From assembly GCA_030523425.1 (NCBI GenBank), contig JAUNIP010000012.1, positions 1 to 40,928 on the forward strand: a DNA stretch of 40,928 bases, in the 5' to 3' direction. Each line of letters begins with the position of its first letter. The first letter of the stretch is position 1. Below, piece by piece: positions 1-32,334 of this stretch. The DNA comes from Coriobacteriia bacterium (GTDB lineage Bacteria > Actinomycetota > Coriobacteriia > Coriobacteriales > Eggerthellaceae). The position numbers and the translations under genes are program-made. The notes below the pieces were generated by a model. It was not told the DNA's origin, searched no databases, and saw nothing but the letters and a program-made list of their open reading frames with translations.

Positions 1-1
1 C

Positions 2-211
2 GAAGTGGTGCTGGTGATAGACGCCCCCAACCAGGCCGAACAGGACCAGGCCGCGGCCGATGCCACGCAGGATGCTGCCACGCGCGCCGCGGAATTGCTG
101 GCCGCGGGCGCGCGCCCCAAGGAAGTGGCGAAGACGCTGGTGGCGGAGTTCGCCCTGCCGCGCAATGCCGCCTATGACGTGGCCCTGCAAGCGGCGAAAG
201 GCCTGGCGTAG
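2..211 (+). CDS. rsmI: RsmI C-terminus (16S rRNA 2'-O-methyltransferase), 5' truncated
   Basis: Only the last 69 codons are in the window; the reading frame is open from base 2. RsmI methylates the ribose of C1402 in 16S rRNA using SAM. The visible part starts with the beta-strand EVVLVID that closes the methyltransferase fold. It continues into a small helical C-terminal domain (A-x2-LLAAGARPKEVAKTLVAEF and then RNAAYDVALQAAKGLA), the typical helix-turn-helix tail of this family. The catalytic domain lies upstream of the window, so the call rests on the tail alone. The stop codon abuts the ATG of the next gene, implying one transcript. Confidence 0.72.
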   Translation, partial: EVVLVIDAPNQAEQDQAAADATQDAATRAAELLAAGARPKEVAKTLVAEFALPRNAAYDVALQAAKGLA

Positions 212-844
212 ATGGCGTTTTCCGACTGGACCACCCCCGCACAGCTGGCCAGCACCTCCAAGCGCAAGCGCAGCGGCACCCGCCCGCGCAAGGTCGCGCC
301 CGCGCAGCTTACGTTCTTCGACGACCTGGAAATATGGGTCACGCGCAAAAGCGTGAAGAACATCAACCTGCGGGTCAGCCCGCCGGATGGCCGCGTGGAA
401 ATAAGCGTGCCTTGGGGCCTGTCCGAACGCCAGCTGCAGGATTTCGTGCGCGAACACCACGACTGGATAGTGGCCAAGCAGCAAGACATCCTGAATTCCA
501 CCATGTCAGCGGCGTCGGGTGCTTCCAAAGCGGAAGTGGAAACGTGGCGCACGGTGGTGAAGGCCTTCGTGCCGCCGTTGGTGGCCAAGTGGGAACAGGT
601 GCTGGGCGTTCGCGTGAACAAGCTGGCGTATCGCAACATGACCAGCCGATGGGGAAGCTGCCAACCTGGCACGGGGCGCGTGTGCATAAACGTGCGGCTG
701 GCGCTGTACCCGCCGGAATGCTTAGAATACGTGGTGGTACACGAATTGTGCCACCTGCGGGTGCACGGTCACGGGCCCGAATTTTGGGCCTTGGTGGAAA
801 GCTGCCTGCCGGATTACCGCGCGGCGCGCAAGAAGCTGCAGTAG
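212..844 (+). CDS. YgjP/WLM-type zinc metallopeptidase (M48-like)
   Basis: This is a 210-residue soluble protein of the YgjP (DUF45) family. Residues 177-181 form HELCH, a HExxH zinc site, and H187 in the HGHGPEFW segment is the expected third ligand. The preceding RWGSC motif (about 146-150) is also a family signature. The N-terminal half (about 40-95) is the beta-rich domain beginning with the IWVTRKSVKNINLRV region. No signal peptide is seen, so it should act in the cytoplasm. The natural substrate of this family is not established. The ATG follows the rsmI stop with no gap and only a weak purine-rich site upstream, so translation is probably coupled to rsmI. Confidence 0.88.
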   Translation: MAFSDWTTPAQLASTSKRKRSGTRPRKVAPAQLTFFDDLEIWVTRKSVKNINLRVSPPDGRVEISVPWGLSERQLQDFVREHHDWIVAKQQDILNSTMSAASGASKAEVETWRTVVKAFVPPLVAKWEQVLGVRVNKLAYRNMTSRWGSCQPGTGRVCINVRLALYPPECLEYVVVHELCHLRVHGHGPEFWALVESCLPDYRAARKKLQ

Positions 845-24308: not shown

Positions 24309-24329
24309 ATATTAGACATCATCCTATAT
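24309..24329 (+). promoter_or_regulatory. Operator A on the deaminase promoter
   Basis: Left half ATATTAGAC, 3-bp spacer, right half ATCCTATAT. The left half overlaps an extended -10 box (TGC + TATATT, 24305-24313), so a bound repressor would block the promoter. It is one of four sites in the window with the left half ATANTAGAC. Confidence 0.6.
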
Positions 24330-24351: not shown

Positions 24352-25653
24352 ATGCTCTTCAAAGACATCGCCATTCTGGATGAGAACTTCGACTACGCCG
24401 CCGGCATGTGGGTGGGCGTGAAAGATGACACGATTGACTACATTGGCGCTTCAGCCCCCGAAAACGCCGCCGATTACGGCGAGACCTACGACGGCGCCGG
24501 CAAGCTGTTGATGCCCGCCTTCTACAACGCGCACGCCCACGCGCCTATGACGTTGCTGCGCGGATACGCGGAAAACGCCCCGCTGCAGCAGTGGCTCAAC
24601 GAAATGGTGTGGCCCTTCGAGGCTAAGATGAACGGCGAAGACAACTACTGGGCAACCGCCCTTTCCTGTGCCGAAATGATGCGCTTCGGCTGCGTCAGTT
24701 TTTCGGACATGTACTACCACACGCCCCTGCGCGCCAAAGCCGTTGGCGAAGCCGGCATGAAGGCCAACCTGTGCGAAGGCCTGCTGGCGTTTGAGCCTAA
24801 GCCGTATAAGGAATATCCCGTCTGCCAGGCAAACGAAGAATACTTCAGCACGCTGCATGGCGCCTTTGACGGCCGCATCCTTATGGAGTACAACATCCAT
24901 GCGGAATATACGTCTAACCCCGTGGTGTGTGCCGACATTGCCCAGCTTGCCAAGGAAAAGGGCGCGGGCATCCACGTGCACATTTCCGAAACCAAAAACG
25001 AGCACGAAGAGTGCAAGCAGCGCCACGACGGCATGACGCCGGTGCAGTACTTCGACAGCCTGGGCGTGCTAGATGTGCCGGTAACCGCCGCGCACTGCGT
25101 GTGGGTGGAAGAAGACGACATGGACATCATGGCGCAAAAGGGTGTCACCTGCGTGTGCAACCCTGCTTCCAATATGAAGCTGGCCAGCGGTTTCGCGCCC
25201 ATTCCGCGCATGCTGGAAAAGGGCATCAACGTGGCCTTGGGCACCGACGGCATGGCTTCCAACAACAACCATGACATGATGCAGGATATGTATCTGATGG
25301 CGCTTCTGTACAAGGGCAACCAACTTGATCCCACCGTTATCACCCCCAAGCAGGCGCTGTATGCTGCCACCCGCGGCGGCGCGTTGGCCCAGGGGCGTGC
25401 GGACTGCGGCCTGGTGAAGGTTGGCTTCAAGGCCGACCTGTGCGTGCTTGACGTAACGGGCCCTGCATGGGCGCCCATGCACAACCCGCTGTGCAACGTG
25501 GTGTATGCGGGCCACGGGTCTGACGTGGTGCTAACCCTGTGCGACGGCAAGAAGATCTACGAAAACGGCGTGTACTTTGGCGTGGACGTGGAAAAGGCGA
25601 AGGCCGAAGTGACCAGCCGCTTGCAGCGCATCTGCGAAGAGCTGAAGGCATAG
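24352..25653 (+). CDS. MTA/SAH deaminase-type amidohydrolase
   Basis: The 433-residue protein belongs to the MtaD/SsnA branch of the amidohydrolase superfamily. These enzymes deaminate S-adenosylhomocysteine, 5'-methylthioadenosine and often 5'-deoxyadenosine. Metal-binding signatures are present: NAHAHAP (H61, H63), HVHISET, AHCVWV and the catalytic Asp in GTDGMASNNNHDM. YNIHAEYTSNP is also conserved. The length is normal for the group. ACAGGGGAAAGGA provides the ribosome site. The promoter overlaps operator A, the same motif that flanks the ArsM/ArsS operon 2.6 kb downstream. This suggests a job in recycling SAH and 5'-deoxyadenosine made by those SAM enzymes. Substrate choice is inferred from family, not seen. 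Confidence 0.85.
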   Translation: MLFKDIAILDENFDYAAGMWVGVKDDTIDYIGASAPENAADYGETYDGAGKLLMPAFYNAHAHAPMTLLRGYAENAPLQQWLNEMVWPFEAKMNGEDNYWATALSCAEMMRFGCVSFSDMYYHTPLRAKAVGEAGMKANLCEGLLAFEPKPYKEYPVCQANEEYFSTLHGAFDGRILMEYNIHAEYTSNPVVCADIAQLAKEKGAGIHVHISETKNEHEECKQRHDGMTPVQYFDSLGVLDVPVTAAHCVWVEEDDMDIMAQKGVTCVCNPASNMKLASGFAPIPRMLEKGINVALGTDGMASNNNHDMMQDMYLMALLYKGNQLDPTVITPKQALYAATRGGALAQGRADCGLVKVGFKADLCVLDVTGPAWAPMHNPLCNVVYAGHGSDVVLTLCDGKKIYENGVYFGVDVEKAKAEVTSRLQRICEELKA

Positions 25654-26700: not shown

Positions 26701-26746
26701 TGTTTCAGACCACTACCTATAATAGACTTAGTCCATTAATTGTCAA
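26701..26746 (-). promoter_or_regulatory. Left outward-facing promoter-operator module (operator B)
   Basis: Operator B occupies 26719-26739: halves ATAATAGAC and GTCCATTAA. On the minus strand TTGACA (26746-26741) and TATTAT (26724-26719) are 16 bp apart, a good promoter that fires leftward, away from the operon. On the plus strand the same bases give a perfect TATAAT (26718-26723) that could serve the operon, though no -35 is visible. The predicted minus-strand RNA would start with GGTAGTGGTCTGAAAC-like sequence. The 46-bp module matches the one at 31435-31480 at 34 of 46 positions without gaps, in mirror orientation. Confidence 0.6.
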
Positions 26747-26902: not shown

Positions 26903-26923
26903 ATAGTAGACAAGGTCAACTAT
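26903..26923 (+). promoter_or_regulatory. Operator C, proximal to the ArsM-like gene
   Basis: Left half ATAGTAGAC, spacer AAG, right half GTCAACTAT, the most symmetric of the four sites. TATAGT (26902-26907) may be the -10 box of the operon; the -35 is poor, which suggests an activator or an alternative start at operator B. The site ends 20 bases before ATG 26944. Confidence 0.6.
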
Positions 26924-26943: not shown

Positions 26944-28044
26944 ATGCGTCTTGCCGACTATCCTGCTGCTTACCGTATTTCCACCGACTATCAAGACTAT
27001 TACGACAAGTTGGCCGCTGCTCAGGGCACAGACCCCCTGGCAACCGCCCGTACGCGTGACGCCGAAGGCACCATGACTCCGCTGGCGCGCGACGTCATGT
27101 TCAACGTGTCCGCCGAAATCAAGAACACCTTCAACGAATACGCCTGCAACGTGCCGCCGCTGCTGGAAAGCTGCACCGTGGTGAACCTGTGCAGCGGTTC
27201 CGGCCGTGACCTGTATGTGTTGGCCCAGCTGGTGGGCGAAAACGGCAAGGTGATTGGCGTGGAGCCCAATGCTGCCCGCCGCGCCATAGCCGAAAAGTAC
27301 CTGACCAAGGAAATCAAGCAGTTCGGTTACGCTGCCAGCAACGTGGAGCTGGTGGCCGGCTGCCCCGAAGATCTGTCCATGATTGCCAGCGATACGGCCG
27401 ACGTGGTGTACTCCAACTGCACGTTCAACGCTTCGCCTGACAAGTACGCTTACCTGTGCGAAGTGCAGCGCGTGCTGAAGACCGGCGGCGAATTCTACTT
27501 CACCGACGTGTTTTCCGACTGTCGCTTGGACCCCGAAATTGCCAACAACATTGCTTACCGCGCAGAATACCTGGGCGGGGCCATGTATATCAACGACTTC
27601 CGCCGCTTGAGCTACCTGGCTGGCTTCAACGACCCGCGCTACTTGGTGACCAACAAGACCATCCTGACCGAAGAAGAGCAGTCCCACTACCCGCAGGCCG
27701 CCTTCGCCACCATCACGTGCCGCCTGATGAACTCCGAAGTGTCCGATGACGTGTGCGAAAACTTCGGTGAATACATTGCCTATAACGGTCAGCTGCCCGA
27801 CTTCCCGGAATACTTCCTGTTCGACAAGGACATCAAGTTTCCCACGGGCAAGGAATGCCAGGTGTGCAACAATGTGGCCGCTGTGGCTGCGTACGGCAGC
27901 CGCTACGCCAAGGTGTTCACCTACAAGGGCAGCCAAGCGCACCATATTGGCGACACGCACGGCGACCACATCATCAAGGTGGCGCCCGACTTCGATGGCA
28001 TCGCTGACGAAGACGACCAGCCCATTATGGCTTCTTGCTGCTAA
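26944..28044 (+). CDS. Diverged ArsM-like SAM methyltransferase
   Basis: The 366-residue protein is a paralogue of the ArsM half of the third gene in this operon. Shared blocks include the SAM loop VVNLCSGSGRDLYVLAQLVG (about 79-98, versus VLDLGCGTGRD), SNCTFNASPDK (156-167), RVLKTGGEFYFTDVFSD, and the C-terminal CENFGEYIAYNGQLP to SRYAKVF region. The SNC cysteine (C159) is kept. The GEC cysteine that binds arsenic in classical ArsM is Y209, and the N-terminal CC pair is absent. Instead the protein has CQVC (305-308), a His-rich HHIGDTHGDH segment and a terminal CC (365-366). It probably binds a metal or metalloid but may not be an arsenite methyltransferase. AAGAGG precedes ATG 26944. It is first in the operon. 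Confidence 0.78.
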   Translation: MRLADYPAAYRISTDYQDYYDKLAAAQGTDPLATARTRDAEGTMTPLARDVMFNVSAEIKNTFNEYACNVPPLLESCTVVNLCSGSGRDLYVLAQLVGENGKVIGVEPNAARRAIAEKYLTKEIKQFGYAASNVELVAGCPEDLSMIASDTADVVYSNCTFNASPDKYAYLCEVQRVLKTGGEFYFTDVFSDCRLDPEIANNIAYRAEYLGGAMYINDFRRLSYLAGFNDPRYLVTNKTILTEEEQSHYPQAAFATITCRLMNSEVSDDVCENFGEYIAYNGQLPDFPEYFLFDKDIKFPTGKECQVCNNVAAVAAYGSRYAKVFTYKGSQAHHIGDTHGDHIIKVAPDFDGIADEDDQPIMASCC

Positions 28045-28063
28045 GCTAGGGCGCATGATATAC

Positions 28064-28087
28064 GGGGGCCGGTGCGCGCCGGTCCCC
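28064..28087 (+). other. Intercistronic hairpin
   Basis: GGGGGCCGGT (28064-28073) pairs with the segment ending in GCCGGTCCCC (28078-28087), with G:T wobbles. CTTCTT-like bases follow and then the cobW ribosome site. It may attenuate or stabilise the upstream transcript and so set the ratio of the first to later products. Confidence 0.45.
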
Positions 28088-28104
28088 TTCTTGAAGGAGA
28101 GTGC

Positions 28105-29265
28105 ATGGACAACGTAACAAATTCGCTGATGGGCGGCGCGGCCGAAGCCGTGCCCACCAAGCAAAGTGACGTATCTCGCGAAAAGATTCGTTTCATGGTG
28201 GTCAGCGGCTTTCTGGGCGCGGGCAAAACCACCACTATGATTGCCTTAGGCGAGCACATGTGCAAAACCTACGGCGAAACGGCCATTATCGCCAATGACC
28301 TGGGCGCGAATTTGGTGGACACCAACCTGACCCAGACCAGCGGCTGCACGGTGGCCGAAATTGCTTCCGGGTGCATCTGCTACCAGATGGACAACACCGT
28401 CGACCAGATTCGCCGCCTGCGCGACAAGGACGGCGCGGTGTTTGTGATGAGCGACATCCCGGGCTGTGGCGTGGGCGCGCTTGACCATGTGTACCATACG
28501 CTGGCGGACAACAACGCCGACGAGTTCATCCTAAGCCCCTTCACGGTCATCGTGGATCCGGAGCGCCTGCGCATGATCATGCCCGAACGGGCCGACATCA
28601 ACCTGCCGGAAGAGTTGGTGTATTTGCTGCAGCTGCAGCTGGAAGAAGCCGACTTGGTGGTGCTGAACAAGTGCGACACGCTTGCGCCCGAAGACATAGA
28701 GCGCTACGTGGACTTCCTGCACACGGCCTGCCCGGACATCCCGGTGCTCACCATTTCGGCGCTTGAGCGCACCGGCATTGAAGAGTTGGCCGATTTCGTG
28801 ACCACGCACGTCAGCGCGCTGAAGAACTTCTCCGTGCGCGACAACGAACGCTTCGCCGAAGCGGAAACGAAGCTGACCTGGTACAACCGTCGCGTGTACT
28901 TCAAGACATTGGATGGTTCCAAGATTGATTTCAACGCCGCCATCGAAGACCTTATCGAAGAGATTCGCATGGGGCTTATTGAGCGCAAGCGCAACGTGCC
29001 GCACCTGAAGATGTTCGCCACCAGCGGAAACGGCGACTTCAACAAGGCCAGCCTGATAGGCGTGGACTACGACATAGAATACGCGCAGCAGATGCTGCGG
29101 CCGCACAAGAACGCGCGCATGATCATCAACGCGCGTGCCGTGTGCGAAAGCCGGCCCATGGCGCGCATTGTGGACGACGCCATAGACGCGGTGTGCGACA
29201 AGTACAACTTGGACTGCCAGGTGTTTTTCACCGAATGCTTCGGCATGGGCGACGAAGGCCGCTAA
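28105..29265 (+). CDS. CobW/G3E-family GTPase
   Basis: The 386-residue P-loop GTPase belongs to the G3E family (CobW, UreG, HypB, MeaB), which load metals or cofactors into target enzymes. Walker A is GFLGAGKTT (35-43), the switch region includes IIANDLG, the metal-binding loop is SGCICYQ (C90, C92; the common GCxCC with the third Cys replaced by Tyr), and the guanine-specificity motif is NKCD (188-191). The C-terminal part (about 245-386) is not the standard CobW C-domain that I can recognise. GAAGGAGAG precedes ATG 28105. It sits between the two methyltransferase genes, suggesting it serves one of them, for instance in metal or metalloid delivery; that is inference. Confidence 0.85.
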   Translation: MDNVTNSLMGGAAEAVPTKQSDVSREKIRFMVVSGFLGAGKTTTMIALGEHMCKTYGETAIIANDLGANLVDTNLTQTSGCTVAEIASGCICYQMDNTVDQIRRLRDKDGAVFVMSDIPGCGVGALDHVYHTLADNNADEFILSPFTVIVDPERLRMIMPERADINLPEELVYLLQLQLEEADLVVLNKCDTLAPEDIERYVDFLHTACPDIPVLTISALERTGIEELADFVTTHVSALKNFSVRDNERFAEAETKLTWYNRRVYFKTLDGSKIDFNAAIEDLIEEIRMGLIERKRNVPHLKMFATSGNGDFNKASLIGVDYDIEYAQQMLRPHKNARMIINARAVCESRPMARIVDDAIDAVCDKYNLDCQVFFTECFGMGDEGR

Positions 29266-29319
29266 CGGGGGGATTTCGGCCCGCTGCGTGATGCGGCGGC
29301 CAAACGAGGAGGAGTTTGC

Positions 29320-31371
29320 GTGACTGATTCCGACATTCGCGCGAAGGTTCAGGCGTACTACGGGTCGTTTTTGCAAGAGTCGGATGACCTGCGTACCGAT
29401 GCGTGCTGCTGTTCTGAAACACCGCCGCCGAAGTACGTGCTAGACGCGCTGAACGACATAGAAGATGACATCTTGGACCACTTCTACGGCTGCGGCAGCC
29501 CCATCCCGCCGGCGCTGGAAGGCGCCACGGTGCTGGATTTGGGCTGCGGCACGGGGCGCGATGTGTACATTGCGTCCAAGCTGGTGGGGCCTACCGGCCA
29601 TGTCATAGGCGTGGACATGACGCCTTCGCAGCTGGATTTCGCGCGCAAGTACGAAGCTGCCCAGATGGAGCGCTTCGGGTTTGCGGAAAGCAACGTGGAG
29701 TTCGTGGAAAGCTACATAGAAGACATGGCCGCCATTCCCAGCGAAAGCGTGGACGTGGTCATTTCCAATTGCGTGGTGAACCTGTCGCCGTTCAAGAATC
29801 AACTGTTCGCGGAAGTGTTTCGCGTGCTGAAGCCCGGTGGCGAACTGTTCTTTTCCGACATCTTCAGCGACCGGCGCGTGCCCGAAGGCTTTTACGACGA
29901 CCCTGTGCTGCGCGGCGAATGCCTTTCGGGGGCCATGTACATAGAAGACTTCCGGCGCATGCTGGCCGAAAACGGCGTGGCCACGTTCTACGACGTGGAA
30001 TGCGACGAGGTGCACATCGGCGACTTGCGCATTGCCACCAAGCTGGGTTGCATTGGCTTTTACAGCCACACCGTGCGCGCCGTGAAGGGCGTGGATTTAG
30101 AGTCGCGCGAAGAAGACTACGGGCAGGTGGCCACGTATTTGGGCACCATGCCGGAAAACAAGCGCTACTTCGATTTGAGTTCGCAGGTGCGCCTGATCAA
30201 GGGGCGCCCCGTGGCTGTAAGCGGCAATATGGCCGCCCTGCTGCAGGGCAGCCGCTACGCTCCGCACTTCACCATTACGCCCCGCAAGCAGCATAGGGGT
30301 GGGTTTGACTTCGCCGCCGCCAACCAGGCGCTGGCGCTGCAGAAGGAGAAAGAGCGCATCGGTTTGGCCGATTTGCAGGACGCCTGCGCCGCGCTGGGCA
30401 TTGAGCCGTGGGAACAGCGCGTGCATGACAAGGGCTTCTTGGAAACCACCACGCTTACCACCATGCAGGTGAACGTCACCTACAAGTGCAACCTGGCGTG
30501 CAACCACTGCTACCTGCAGTGCAGCCCCAAAAACGACCAGGAAATGAGCCGAGAAACCATGGAAGCGGTGCTGGTGGCGTTTCGCACCGGCGGCTTTAAG
30601 ACCATGGACATCACAGGCGGTTCGCCGGAGATGAATCCCAACTTGGAATGGTTCATTGGTCAGGCCGCTCAGCTTGCCGACGAAGTGATTGTGCGCTCCA
30701 ACCTGACCATCCTGCAGCTGCCCGAGTATCACCATTTCATGCAGGTGTACGCTGCCAACAAGGTGAAACTGGTGTGCAGCCTGCCATATTTCACCCAGCT
30801 GGGTTGCGACAACCAGCGCGGCGGGGGCGTGTTTCGCAAGGTGATGGACAGCTTGCACGAACTGAATGAGCTGGGGTATGGGCGCACGCCTGAACTGCAG
30901 ATTGACCTGGTGTACAACGTGGACGGCCCCTTCCTGCCGCCCGACCAGCGAGAATTGGCCGATCTGTACAAGTACGAGCTGCAGCGCGCCGAAGGGGTGG
31001 ACTTCAACGGCATGTACGCGTTCAACAACTACTGCCTGGGTCGCTTCGCCAACCAAATGAAAGCGCAGCAGAAGTTCGACTACTACCTGAAGCTGCTTTC
31101 CGACAACTACAACGGCGCCGTGGTGGCGCGCATCATGTGTCGCAGCCAGATCAACGTGGACTGGGACGGCGGCCTGTACGACTGCGAAGTGAACCACGTG
31201 TTAGGGCTGCCCATCAACGGGCCTGCCAACGTGCGCGACATTGTGGATGCGCCGCTTGCCAAGCGCACCATTGTTTCCAGCCCCATCTGTTACAGCTGTT
31301 CGGCGGGTTGCGGTTCCAGCTGTGGCGGCAGCTTGCTGGAAAAGCAGATGGCCGAAGAAGCGGCGTTTTAG
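29320..31371 (+). CDS. ArsM-ArsS fusion: methyltransferase plus arsenosugar-type radical SAM enzyme
   Basis: The 683-residue protein joins two enzymes usually encoded separately. Residues 1-330 are a full ArsM: the CCC at 29-31, YGCGSP, SAM loop VLDLGCGTGRD (71-81), GVDMTPSQL, SNCVVNLSP (C151), GECLSGAMY (C201), then EDYGQVATYLGTMP and the end block SRYAPHF. Both arsenic-binding cysteines are kept. Residues about 375-683 are ArsS-like radical SAM: C390-x3-C394-x2-C397, MDITGGSPEMNP, VRSNLTILQLPEY, DLVYNVDGPFLPP, and a C-terminal cysteine set (C607, C622, C657, C660, C664, C668 in CYSCSAGCGSSCGG). In known pathways ArsM makes methylarsenicals and ArsS adds a 5'-deoxyadenosyl group to form arsenosugar precursors. 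GTG 29320 follows AGGAGGAG by five bases. Confidence 0.85.
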   Translation: MTDSDIRAKVQAYYGSFLQESDDLRTDACCCSETPPPKYVLDALNDIEDDILDHFYGCGSPIPPALEGATVLDLGCGTGRDVYIASKLVGPTGHVIGVDMTPSQLDFARKYEAAQMERFGFAESNVEFVESYIEDMAAIPSESVDVVISNCVVNLSPFKNQLFAEVFRVLKPGGELFFSDIFSDRRVPEGFYDDPVLRGECLSGAMYIEDFRRMLAENGVATFYDVECDEVHIGDLRIATKLGCIGFYSHTVRAVKGVDLESREEDYGQVATYLGTMPENKRYFDLSSQVRLIKGRPVAVSGNMAALLQGSRYAPHFTITPRKQHRGGFDFAAANQALALQKEKERIGLADLQDACAALGIEPWEQRVHDKGFLETTTLTTMQVNVTYKCNLACNHCYLQCSPKNDQEMSRETMEAVLVAFRTGGFKTMDITGGSPEMNPNLEWFIGQAAQLADEVIVRSNLTILQLPEYHHFMQVYAANKVKLVCSLPYFTQLGCDNQRGGGVFRKVMDSLHELNELGYGRTPELQIDLVYNVDGPFLPPDQRELADLYKYELQRAEGVDFNGMYAFNNYCLGRFANQMKAQQKFDYYLKLLSDNYNGAVVARIMCRSQINVDWDGGLYDCEVNHVLGLPINGPANVRDIVDAPLAKRTIVSSPICYSCSAGCGSSCGGSLLEKQMAEEAAF

Positions 31372-31434
31372 GCAGGGGAAAGGTAGTGGATTTAATCTAA
31401 TATTTGATTGCCGCAAATTTTTTTGAAATAGCTA

Positions 31435-31480
31435 TTGACTTATAGTAGACATCATCTATTATAGGTATCGGTCTGAAACG
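31435..31480 (+). promoter_or_regulatory. Right outward-facing promoter-operator module (operator D)
   Basis: TTGACT (31435-31440) and TATTAT (31457-31462) are 16 bp apart. Operator D (31442-31462: halves ATAGTAGAC and ATCTATTAT) fills the spacer and -10 box exactly, the classic layout for repression. The promoter faces away from the ArsM-ArsS operon. Bases to 31480 continue the match with the left module, including GGTCTGAAAC in the predicted 5' end of the RNA. Confidence 0.65.
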
Positions 31481-31522
31481 CAGAACCCGGATGAAGTGAA
31501 GCGCATCCGGGTTCATCTTTTT
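31469..31522 (+). ncRNA. Candidate operator-controlled short RNA, about 54 nt
   Basis: Transcription from the right-hand module should start near 31469 and meet a strong terminator ending near 31522. The result is a short RNA with a GGTCTGAAAC-containing 5' end and one hairpin. No coding sequence fits. It may instead be only the terminator region of the ArsS operon with an incidental promoter. Confidence 0.4.
31483..31522 (+). terminator. Terminator after the ArsM-ArsS operon
   Basis: GAACCCGGATG (31483-31493) pairs with CATCCGGGTTC (31504-31514), followed by ATCTTTTT. It ends both read-through from the operon and the outward promoter. Confidence 0.85.
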
Positions 31523-31530
31523 GTGGAAGC

Positions 31531-31545: not shown

Positions 31546-32334
31546 ATGAGTGATTTTCGCGTGACATTGGACCGATACTTGGGGCATAGCACCTGCGTGC
31601 AGGTTCCCGAAGGCATGTTCACCATTGGTGCTCGGGCGTTTTCGTGCAACCGCAGTGTGGTACGGGTGGAAGTGCCCGAAGGCGTGGTGCGCATTGCCGA
31701 CAATGCTTTTTCTTCCTGCGTGAACCTGGAGGAAGTGGTTCTTCCTAGCACCCTTGCGGTGATTGAGCGCGAAGCCTTCAAGGGGTGTCGGCGCCTGAAG
31801 CGCATCCGCATTCCCGAAGGGGTCACAGGCATTCCGGAAAACGCGTTTTTGCGCTGCGAAATGCTGGAAGAAGTGGTGCTGCCACCTGCGCTGACCAGCT
31901 TGGGGCCGGCGGCGTTTAGCCACTGCGAGAAGCTGAAGCGCATTCGCATCCCCGAAGGAGTGCGCGATTTGCCCGCCCGCGTGTTCGACAACTGCCTGCA
32001 GCTACAGGACGTGGTACTGCCGGCGGGGTTGGAATCGCTTGACGACGAAGCGTTTGCCGGCTGCGTGAGGCTTGAGCAGCTGCAACTGCCGGAAACGGTG
32101 GGCTGGATAGGCCGCAAGTGCTTCATGGACTGCGTCAGCCTGAAAAGCATGACGGTGCCGCCGCTGGTCATGTCGGTTGAAGCGGAAACGTTTAGGGGCT
32201 GCGACAGCCTTGAACGCGTAGTGCTGCCCGAAGGCTTGCAAGTGATAGACCACAAAGCCTTCGCCGAATGCCCCAGCCTGGTCGACTGTGAAATCCCCGA
32301 AACCACCGAACTGCTAAGCTCCGAGGTCTTCTAG
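31546..32334 (+). CDS. BspA-type leucine-rich repeat protein
   Basis: The 262-residue protein consists almost wholly of LRR_5 (BspA-type) repeats of about 23 residues. The pattern is I-x2-x-AF-x2-C-x2-L-x3-x-L/V-P-x-x-V/L, seen for example in VVRIADNAFSSCVNLEEVVLP and repeated about ten times. Proteins of this type are often surface adhesins, but this one has no signal peptide or anchor and begins with the first repeat. A cytoplasmic role or export by another route is open. Binding partners cannot be read. It has a probable leaderless start and follows the terminator of the ArsM-ArsS operon. Confidence 0.85.
   Translation: MSDFRVTLDRYLGHSTCVQVPEGMFTIGARAFSCNRSVVRVEVPEGVVRIADNAFSSCVNLEEVVLPSTLAVIEREAFKGCRRLKRIRIPEGVTGIPENAFLRCEMLEEVVLPPALTSLGPAAFSHCEKLKRIRIPEGVRDLPARVFDNCLQLQDVVLPAGLESLDDEAFAGCVRLEQLQLPETVGWIGRKCFMDCVSLKSMTVPPLVMSVEAETFRGCDSLERVVLPEGLQVIDHKAFAECPSLVDCEIPETTELLSSEVF

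Follow-up and report, generated by a model that had tools for sequence, protein, structure and literature searches.

Why would a G3E GTPase be encoded between two arsenic-type methyltransferases? The question is raised by a stretch of 40,928 nucleotides from a Coriobacteriia bacterium of the family Eggerthellaceae (contig JAUNIP010000012.1 of the 1.97-Mb draft assembly GCA_030523425.1; hereafter the window), in which three genes form a compact cassette: M1, whose product resembles the arsenite methyltransferase ArsM; a G3E GTPase; and a fusion of ArsM with the radical S-adenosylmethionine (SAM) enzyme ArsS. ArsM methylates As(III), ArsS adenosylates a dimethylarsenical, and the enzyme ArsL transfers a 3-amino-3-carboxypropyl group to As(III) (PMC8552651, PMC12159101). 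Sequence and structure comparisons suggest, with a probability of about 0.7, that gut Eggerthellaceae have an arsenic-responsive organoarsenical pathway with this operon at its core, arsenic being the likely element. The new point is the GTPase, relatives of which stand beside three kinds of radical enzyme (ArsS, ArsL and TrsS), two of them known to form carbon-arsenic bonds.

Results

A diverged ArsM and an ArsM:ArsS fusion frame the GTPase gene

The three genes are co-oriented, with 60 bp between M1 and the GTPase gene and 54 bp between the latter and the fusion gene (Table 1). The N-terminal half of the fusion matches solved ArsM structures with expectation values (E) of 1e-84 to 1e-89 (3.6e-89 for PDB 5evj) and retains all four arsenite/redox cysteines of CmArsM, C44, C72, C174 and C224, as C29, C58, C151 and C201. 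The C-terminal half scores 346.5 bits with the curated equivalog model for ArsS (TIGR04167; cutoff 300), and both its CX3CX2C motif (C390, C394, C397) and its Cys-rich tail CYSCxAGxGSSCGG are invariant in 12 of 12 aligned fusions. The same two enzyme families, with the same radical SAM/DUF3641 architecture, are found in the cyanobacterial arsenosugar enzymes ArsM and ArsS (TIGR04167), but here they form one polypeptide, and the operon adds a G3E GTPase as well as another ArsM that has diverged.

The diverged ArsM is M1. Its best family matches are arsenite methyltransferase models (NF008823 at 90.6 bits, below the cutoff of 263), it matches the ArsM structure 5evj at 1e-45, and the top PDB matches of its AlphaFold model (predicted local distance difference test, pLDDT, 84.7) are all ArsM, with template modelling (TM) scores of about 0.7. 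The SAM motif LCSGSGRD is retained. Of the four CmArsM cysteines, only C174 has an equivalent (C159), the positions of C44, C72 and C224 being occupied by T, Y/F and Y/R. M1 has conserved cysteines of its own, namely C77, C84, C271, C308, C365 and C366, and ends in SCC; the copy in the window carries Ser in place of C84. Because M1 is 52-67% identical between genera and keeps its SAM motif and its own cysteines after losing the canonical site, it is, as judged from these comparisons, under selection and of ArsM fold, yet no canonical arsenite methyltransferase.

Loss of three of the four arsenic cysteines from M1 is also what plain detoxification would allow, in which the fusion would only turn arsenic into methylated species that are volatile or can be excreted, its ArsS half would contribute a side activity and M1 would be a decaying paralogue. 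The identity of M1 between genera and its own conserved cysteines, including the C-terminal SCC, speak against decay, and the preservation of both cysteine motifs of the ArsS half in every aligned fusion speaks against a side activity, so that we consider this explanation improbable.

A first-pass annotation, made from the letters of this stretch alone, had described a unit on one strand with short gaps, led by a diverged ArsM paralogue and closed by an ArsM fused to an ArsS-type radical SAM enzyme, with a G3E GTPase between them, and the reading frames and domain matches agree with it. It had also remarked on the lack of arsR, arsC or an arsenite pump beside these genes. Open reading frame and domain scans of the window likewise place none of the three next to the cassette, but arsenic genes elsewhere in the genome share its DNA motif, as described below.

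Table 1. Coordinates of the cassette and associated features in the window (nucleotide positions, unless residues are indicated).
Feature	Position	Strand	Details
Palindrome TATTAGACATCATCCTATA, operator-like	24310-24328	.	motif score 16.3; 23 bp upstream of amidohydrolase gene
Amidohydrolase gene, probable accessory	24352-25653	+	5'-deoxyadenosine/S-adenosylhomocysteine (SAH)/methylthioadenosine deaminase type
Palindrome TAATAGACTTAGTCCATTA, operator-like	26720-26738	.	motif score 23.7
Palindrome TAGTAGACAAGGTCAACTA, operator-like	26904-26922	.	motif score 19.3; 21 bp upstream of M1 start
M1, ArsM-like gene	26944-28044	+	366-aa open reading frame
G3E GTPase gene	28105-29265	+	386 aa; ATG at 28105; ribosome-binding site aaggaga
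ArsM:ArsS fusion gene	29320-31371	+	683 aa; GTG start; ribosome-binding site gaggaggag
Fusion, canonical ArsM domain	residues ~1-335		domain matches
Fusion, radical SAM ArsS with DUF3641	residues ~365-675		domain matches
Palindrome TAGTGGATTTAATCTAATA, operator-like	31384-31402	.	motif score 19.4; directly 3' of fusion gene
Palindrome TAGTAGACATCATCTATTA, operator-like	31443-31461	.	motif score 18.4; within sigma-70-like promoter TTGACT-16-TATTAT, 31435-31462

The GTPase and the fusion occur in the same genomes

Of 248 Coriobacteriia genomes, 13 have the GTPase and the identical 13 have the fusion; one of them has the two genes on separate contigs. The probability of such an overlap by chance is ~6e-22 when phylogeny is ignored, a value that overstates independence since the genomes, although they come from different genera, are related. 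This exact co-occurrence led us to reject a chance neighbourhood. Another 26 Coriobacteriia genomes that match the query, mostly with a stand-alone ArsS and many with an in-frame TGA, contain no GTPase, and the idea that the GTPase is a partner of any ArsS was rejected on that account.

A GTPase profile scan of 84,980 genomes returned 67 loci. All three genes are present at 25 of them (22 in the order M1-GTPase-fusion on the same strand, three rearranged), and 13 further loci combine GTPase and fusion. Because the cassette is kept in many genera, it is not a product of chance; the worry of the first-pass annotation that the three genes might rarely occur together in relatives is thereby removed.

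The GTPase keeps two cysteines at the position of CxCC

What kind of GTPase has been conserved in this way? Its GTPase domain matches PF02492 (cobW) at 69 bits and contains GFLGAGKTT, C91-I-C93, SDIPGxGxG and NKxD, followed by a C-terminal domain ending in ECFGMxDEGR (C91 and C93 are numbered on the 387-residue translation from position 28102). The top PDB matches of its AlphaFold model (pLDDT 89) are YjiA, HypB, MeaB and UreG, and Walker A, NKxD and the fold place it in the G3E superfamily. A CxCC metal-binding motif has been given for all COG0523 members, located in switch I in CobW-type proteins (PMC2770081). Compared with the COG0523/G3E GTPases CobW, YjiA, Nha3 and ZigA, the protein has the same Walker A, switch, NKxD and fold, but CxCC is reduced to CIC-Y, the third Cys being missing (GCICY), and the C-terminal domain is distinct. 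No curated NCBIfam model reaches its own cutoff on this protein, and a general cobalamin CobW was rejected as its identity (41 bits with the curated CobW model; cutoff 332). C91 and C93 are invariant in 37 GTPase sequences, and because this pair occupies the position of the CobW-type CxCC in switch I, a GTP-gated thiol site at C91-I-C93 is plausible.

GTPase relatives accompany TrsS and arsinothricin-type enzymes

Outside the Coriobacteriia, the GTPase family keeps other company. In Bacillota and related metagenome-assembled genomes, a GTPase of ~34-59% identity lies near TrsS, a radical SAM (seleno)protein (NF045646), in 18 loci, where TrsS takes the place that ArsM:ArsS has in the cassette; 16 of the 17 non-Coriobacteriia genomes with the GTPase have TrsS or a near-cutoff match to it. 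The GTPase is present in 5 of 196 Clostridia genomes. At four Bacillota loci, GTPase-TrsS directly follows the gene for a regulator of the ArsR/SmtB type that contains CxC, with a BioB-like radical SAM gene intervening in one. In the GTPase tree, the members linked to ArsM:ArsS are placed among the TrsS-linked Bacillota members, which fits a putative change of radical SAM partner within the family; the same tree puts the genome of the window in Eggerthellaceae. TrsS of the usual kind was rejected for Eggerthellaceae, all 13 cassette genomes giving only matches of 288-339 bits (cutoff 490), and no published function of TrsS was found within the limited literature covered. BioB-like radical SAM genes lie near the GTPase in two phyla (L071:6962-8005, L040:982-2088, L060 and L065); those at L040, L060 and L065 are near the cassette, and homologues stand behind the palindromic motif described below in genomes G214 and G074.

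With the window GTPase as the query, 72,556 plasmids yielded 16 records, 16 of 16 in arsenic clusters (12 clusters were examined, and the other four list arsM at the match). Most of these clusters carry ArsL and ArsM, and plasmid ArsL passes its curated model (NF040542) at 640-705 bits where tested. The plasmid GTPases are homologues of the window GTPase (26-28% identity over ~90%), and a profile of the chromosomal GTPases recovers them at full length with 172-224 bits; E. coli YjiA scored ~32 bits with an earlier 13-sequence GTPase profile. In a control with a plasmid GTPase of the same family as the query, 1,211 plasmids were found to carry a G3E GTPase of some kind; most of these proteins are ZigA-like and of half length. 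The arsinothricin-type clusters on plasmids of Pantoea, Priestia, Alicyclobacillus, Klebsiella and Enterobacter (ArsM NF040539) share with the cassette a methyltransferase, a radical SAM enzyme, an aquaporin and a G3E GTPase, and include arsR, arsC and arsenite pumps. They differ from it in using ArsL and a GTPase with GCFCC, whereas the cassette uses ArsS and GCICY. No ArsL match was found at E 1e-40 in the 13 cassette genomes, but control genomes were equally blank; on plasmid proteins the model does work. In Enterobacter cloacae and Klebsiella pneumoniae (L143, L146), arsinothricin-type clusters reside on conjugative IncF plasmids, one of them without a radical SAM gene beside IS1.

Does the GTPase handle arsenic, or does it, like its relatives CobW, Nha3 and MeaB, act as a supplier of zinc, iron, cobalt or a corrinoid, here to the radical SAM partner or to a molybdenum enzyme, with no part in arsenic handling? 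The latter would suit its fold neighbours, a COG0523 subgroup reported to adjoin corrinoid methyltransferases (PMC2770081), and the Lachnospiraceae GTPase loci, which are clusters with a molybdopterin aldehyde oxidoreductase, an AMP ligase and C-GCAxxG-C-C proteins. We hold it to be rather unlikely, since the partners of the GTPase share almost nothing beyond being radical SAM enzymes and since the loci on plasmids and those led by ArsR are concerned with arsenic or a metalloid. As the GTPase is common to three radical SAM systems, the simplest inference is that it would assist the radical SAM enzyme itself or take care of its arsenic substrate, and a role as arsenic chaperone is plausible. 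That the GTPases of the ArsS, ArsL and TrsS systems form one family, not recognised so far, of GTP-dependent chaperones for arsenic or of activators for radical SAM enzymes is a tentative proposal to which we give somewhat less than even odds.

A palindrome is shared by arsenic-type genes

A 19-bp motif was fitted on the 250 bp upstream of 20 M1 genes and is a palindrome, TATTAGACTAAGTCTAATA. All 20 M1 promoters exceed the shuffled 99% level, as expected for the set on which the motif was fitted, and with few exceptions the relatives carry the palindrome upstream of their cassette. In the genome of the window, 10 sites were found compared with ~0.6 expected from simulated genomes at the same score. 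Independent matches lie 60 bp upstream of an AhpD-like gene and a second ArsS gene, 73 bp upstream of an operon of aquaporin, ArsM-like and DUF5714 genes, 23 bp upstream of the deaminase-type amidohydrolase gene at 24352, and between an aquaporin gene (68 bp) and an operon for an ArrA-like protein (240 bp). Further class I methyltransferase genes of the same genome that match the ArsM query (L005-L008) have no strong site and are a useful negative control. Furthermore, in Eggerthellaceae loci of 10-17 kb the motif is almost confined to cassette-type and other arsenic-type genes, and in two other genomes an operon of ArrA-like and ArsM genes stands behind it, next to the cassette in Adlercreutzia sp. 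ZJ473. The palindrome is treated here as a putative operator, which would predict a whole regulon in one genome.

Several further sites were seen. Another match in the same genome, a perfect palindrome, TATTAGACATAGTCTAATA, lies at L103:1501-1519 (contig C5), ~200 bp upstream of a small zinc-ribbon-like gene truncated by the contig end. At L052, two sites 58 bp apart (11408 and 11466) follow the fusion gene. In the window, positions 31434-31525 contain a sigma-70-like promoter with the motif in its spacer; a hairpin, AACCCGGATG...CATCCGGGTT, and a T-run follow ahead of a leucine-rich repeat (LRR) gene at 31546, possibly a short RNA or an attenuator. Most Bacillota GTPase genes show no such motif upstream. 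Clostridium ragsdalei, outside the phylum where the motif was found, has a near-perfect copy of the palindrome, TATTAGATATAGTCTAATA, 171 bp upstream of its GTPase-TrsS genes (L064:7812-7830; score 18.7, corrected for GC content).

Other arsenic-type genes of the genome

The second ArsS, encoded behind the AhpD-like gene, has an in-frame TGA, read as selenocysteine (SSUGG), where the fusion has Cys (SSCGG); it is probably a selenoprotein. Its AhpD-like partner passes the model "arsenosugar biosynthesis-associated peroxidase-like". The second ArsM-like gene lies between the genes for the aquaporin and the DUF5714 protein. For the ArrA-like protein, both the top NCBIfam model and the top PDB match are ArrA; its locus (L127:1-6300, contig C26) consists of ArrA-like, ArrB-like and more minus-strand genes and a divergent aquaporin gene, with the motif between. 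A classical Acr3 pump was rejected for this genome, the single match being 38 bits (cutoff 283). Homologues of the amidohydrolase listed in Table 1 are encoded directly 3' of the fusion gene at four other loci (L039, L040, L056 and L062).

Discussion

How might these parts work together? In the proposed order of reactions, arsenite would enter through the aquaporin, and the ArrA-like reductase may generate it from arsenate or from a methylarsenical in oxidised form. Methylation of As(III) would fall to the ArsM half of the fusion, and the ArsS half would then place 5'-deoxyadenosyl on the methylated arsenic, as the first committed step towards arsenosugars. Having lost the canonical arsenite site, M1 would use cysteines of its own to process or carry another arsenical or one formed later on. 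For the G3E GTPase a helper role gated by GTP is expected, either in the delivery of thiol-bound arsenite or in the maturation of the radical SAM partner, and the adenosine-type deaminase behind the same motif would process SAH, 5'-deoxyadenosine or an arsenic nucleoside. The first-pass annotation had suggested that an anaerobe of the gut type might make organoarsenicals with the help of a dedicated metallochaperone. The pathway and its dedicated GTPase gain support from the co-occurrence, the shared motif and the arsinothricin-type homologues; the term metallochaperone and the product are still matters of inference.

Several observations weigh against this pathway. The ArrA-like protein scores 924 bits, below the ArrA cutoff of 1600, and may therefore be a reductase for another arsenical. 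Some motif matches precede genes with no known arsenic link, encoding LRR, nitroreductase and twin-arginine translocation (TAT)-signal proteins. A regulator acting at the motif was looked for and not found, and no helix-turn-helix gene stands behind the sites in this genome; the sole ArsR-type protein found there is distant, has a single Cys at the sensing helix and is not tied to the motif. ArsM and ArsS are unmatched in 13 of the 17 non-Coriobacteriia GTPase genomes, and the published arsinothricin cluster arsQML of B. gladioli, which includes no such GTPase, is functional in E. coli (PMC8552651).

Could the operon then use arsenic-type enzymes on selenium, antimony or tellurium? The first-pass annotation had offered another thiophilic element as its second option, and the missing regulator and the only distant relation of the ArrA-like protein to ArrA would agree with it, as would the listing of ArsS, TrsS and MbdU as selenoprotein families (PMC13188914). 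Since all four arsenite-binding cysteines are retained in the fusion, and arsinothricin clusters, which also carry arsR, arsC and genes for arsenite pumps, contain the same GTPase family, this option is disfavoured and seems very improbable.

Through the GTPase sequence, carbon-arsenic pathways that are otherwise unrelated can be approached from one common point, and the function of TrsS becomes testable. It also raises the question of whether there is a GTP-gated delivery protein for arsenic, as there is for nickel or cobalt. Should the GTPases prove to be a shared family of chaperones or activators, TrsS would be a third enzyme forming carbon-arsenic bonds, and what the cassette of gut Eggerthellaceae produces in the intestine would be an arsenic-containing nucleoside or sugar. 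Because the cassette is carried by the human and animal gut bacteria Gordonibacter, Adlercreutzia and Ellagibacter, dietary arsenic may become complex organoarsenicals in the gut.

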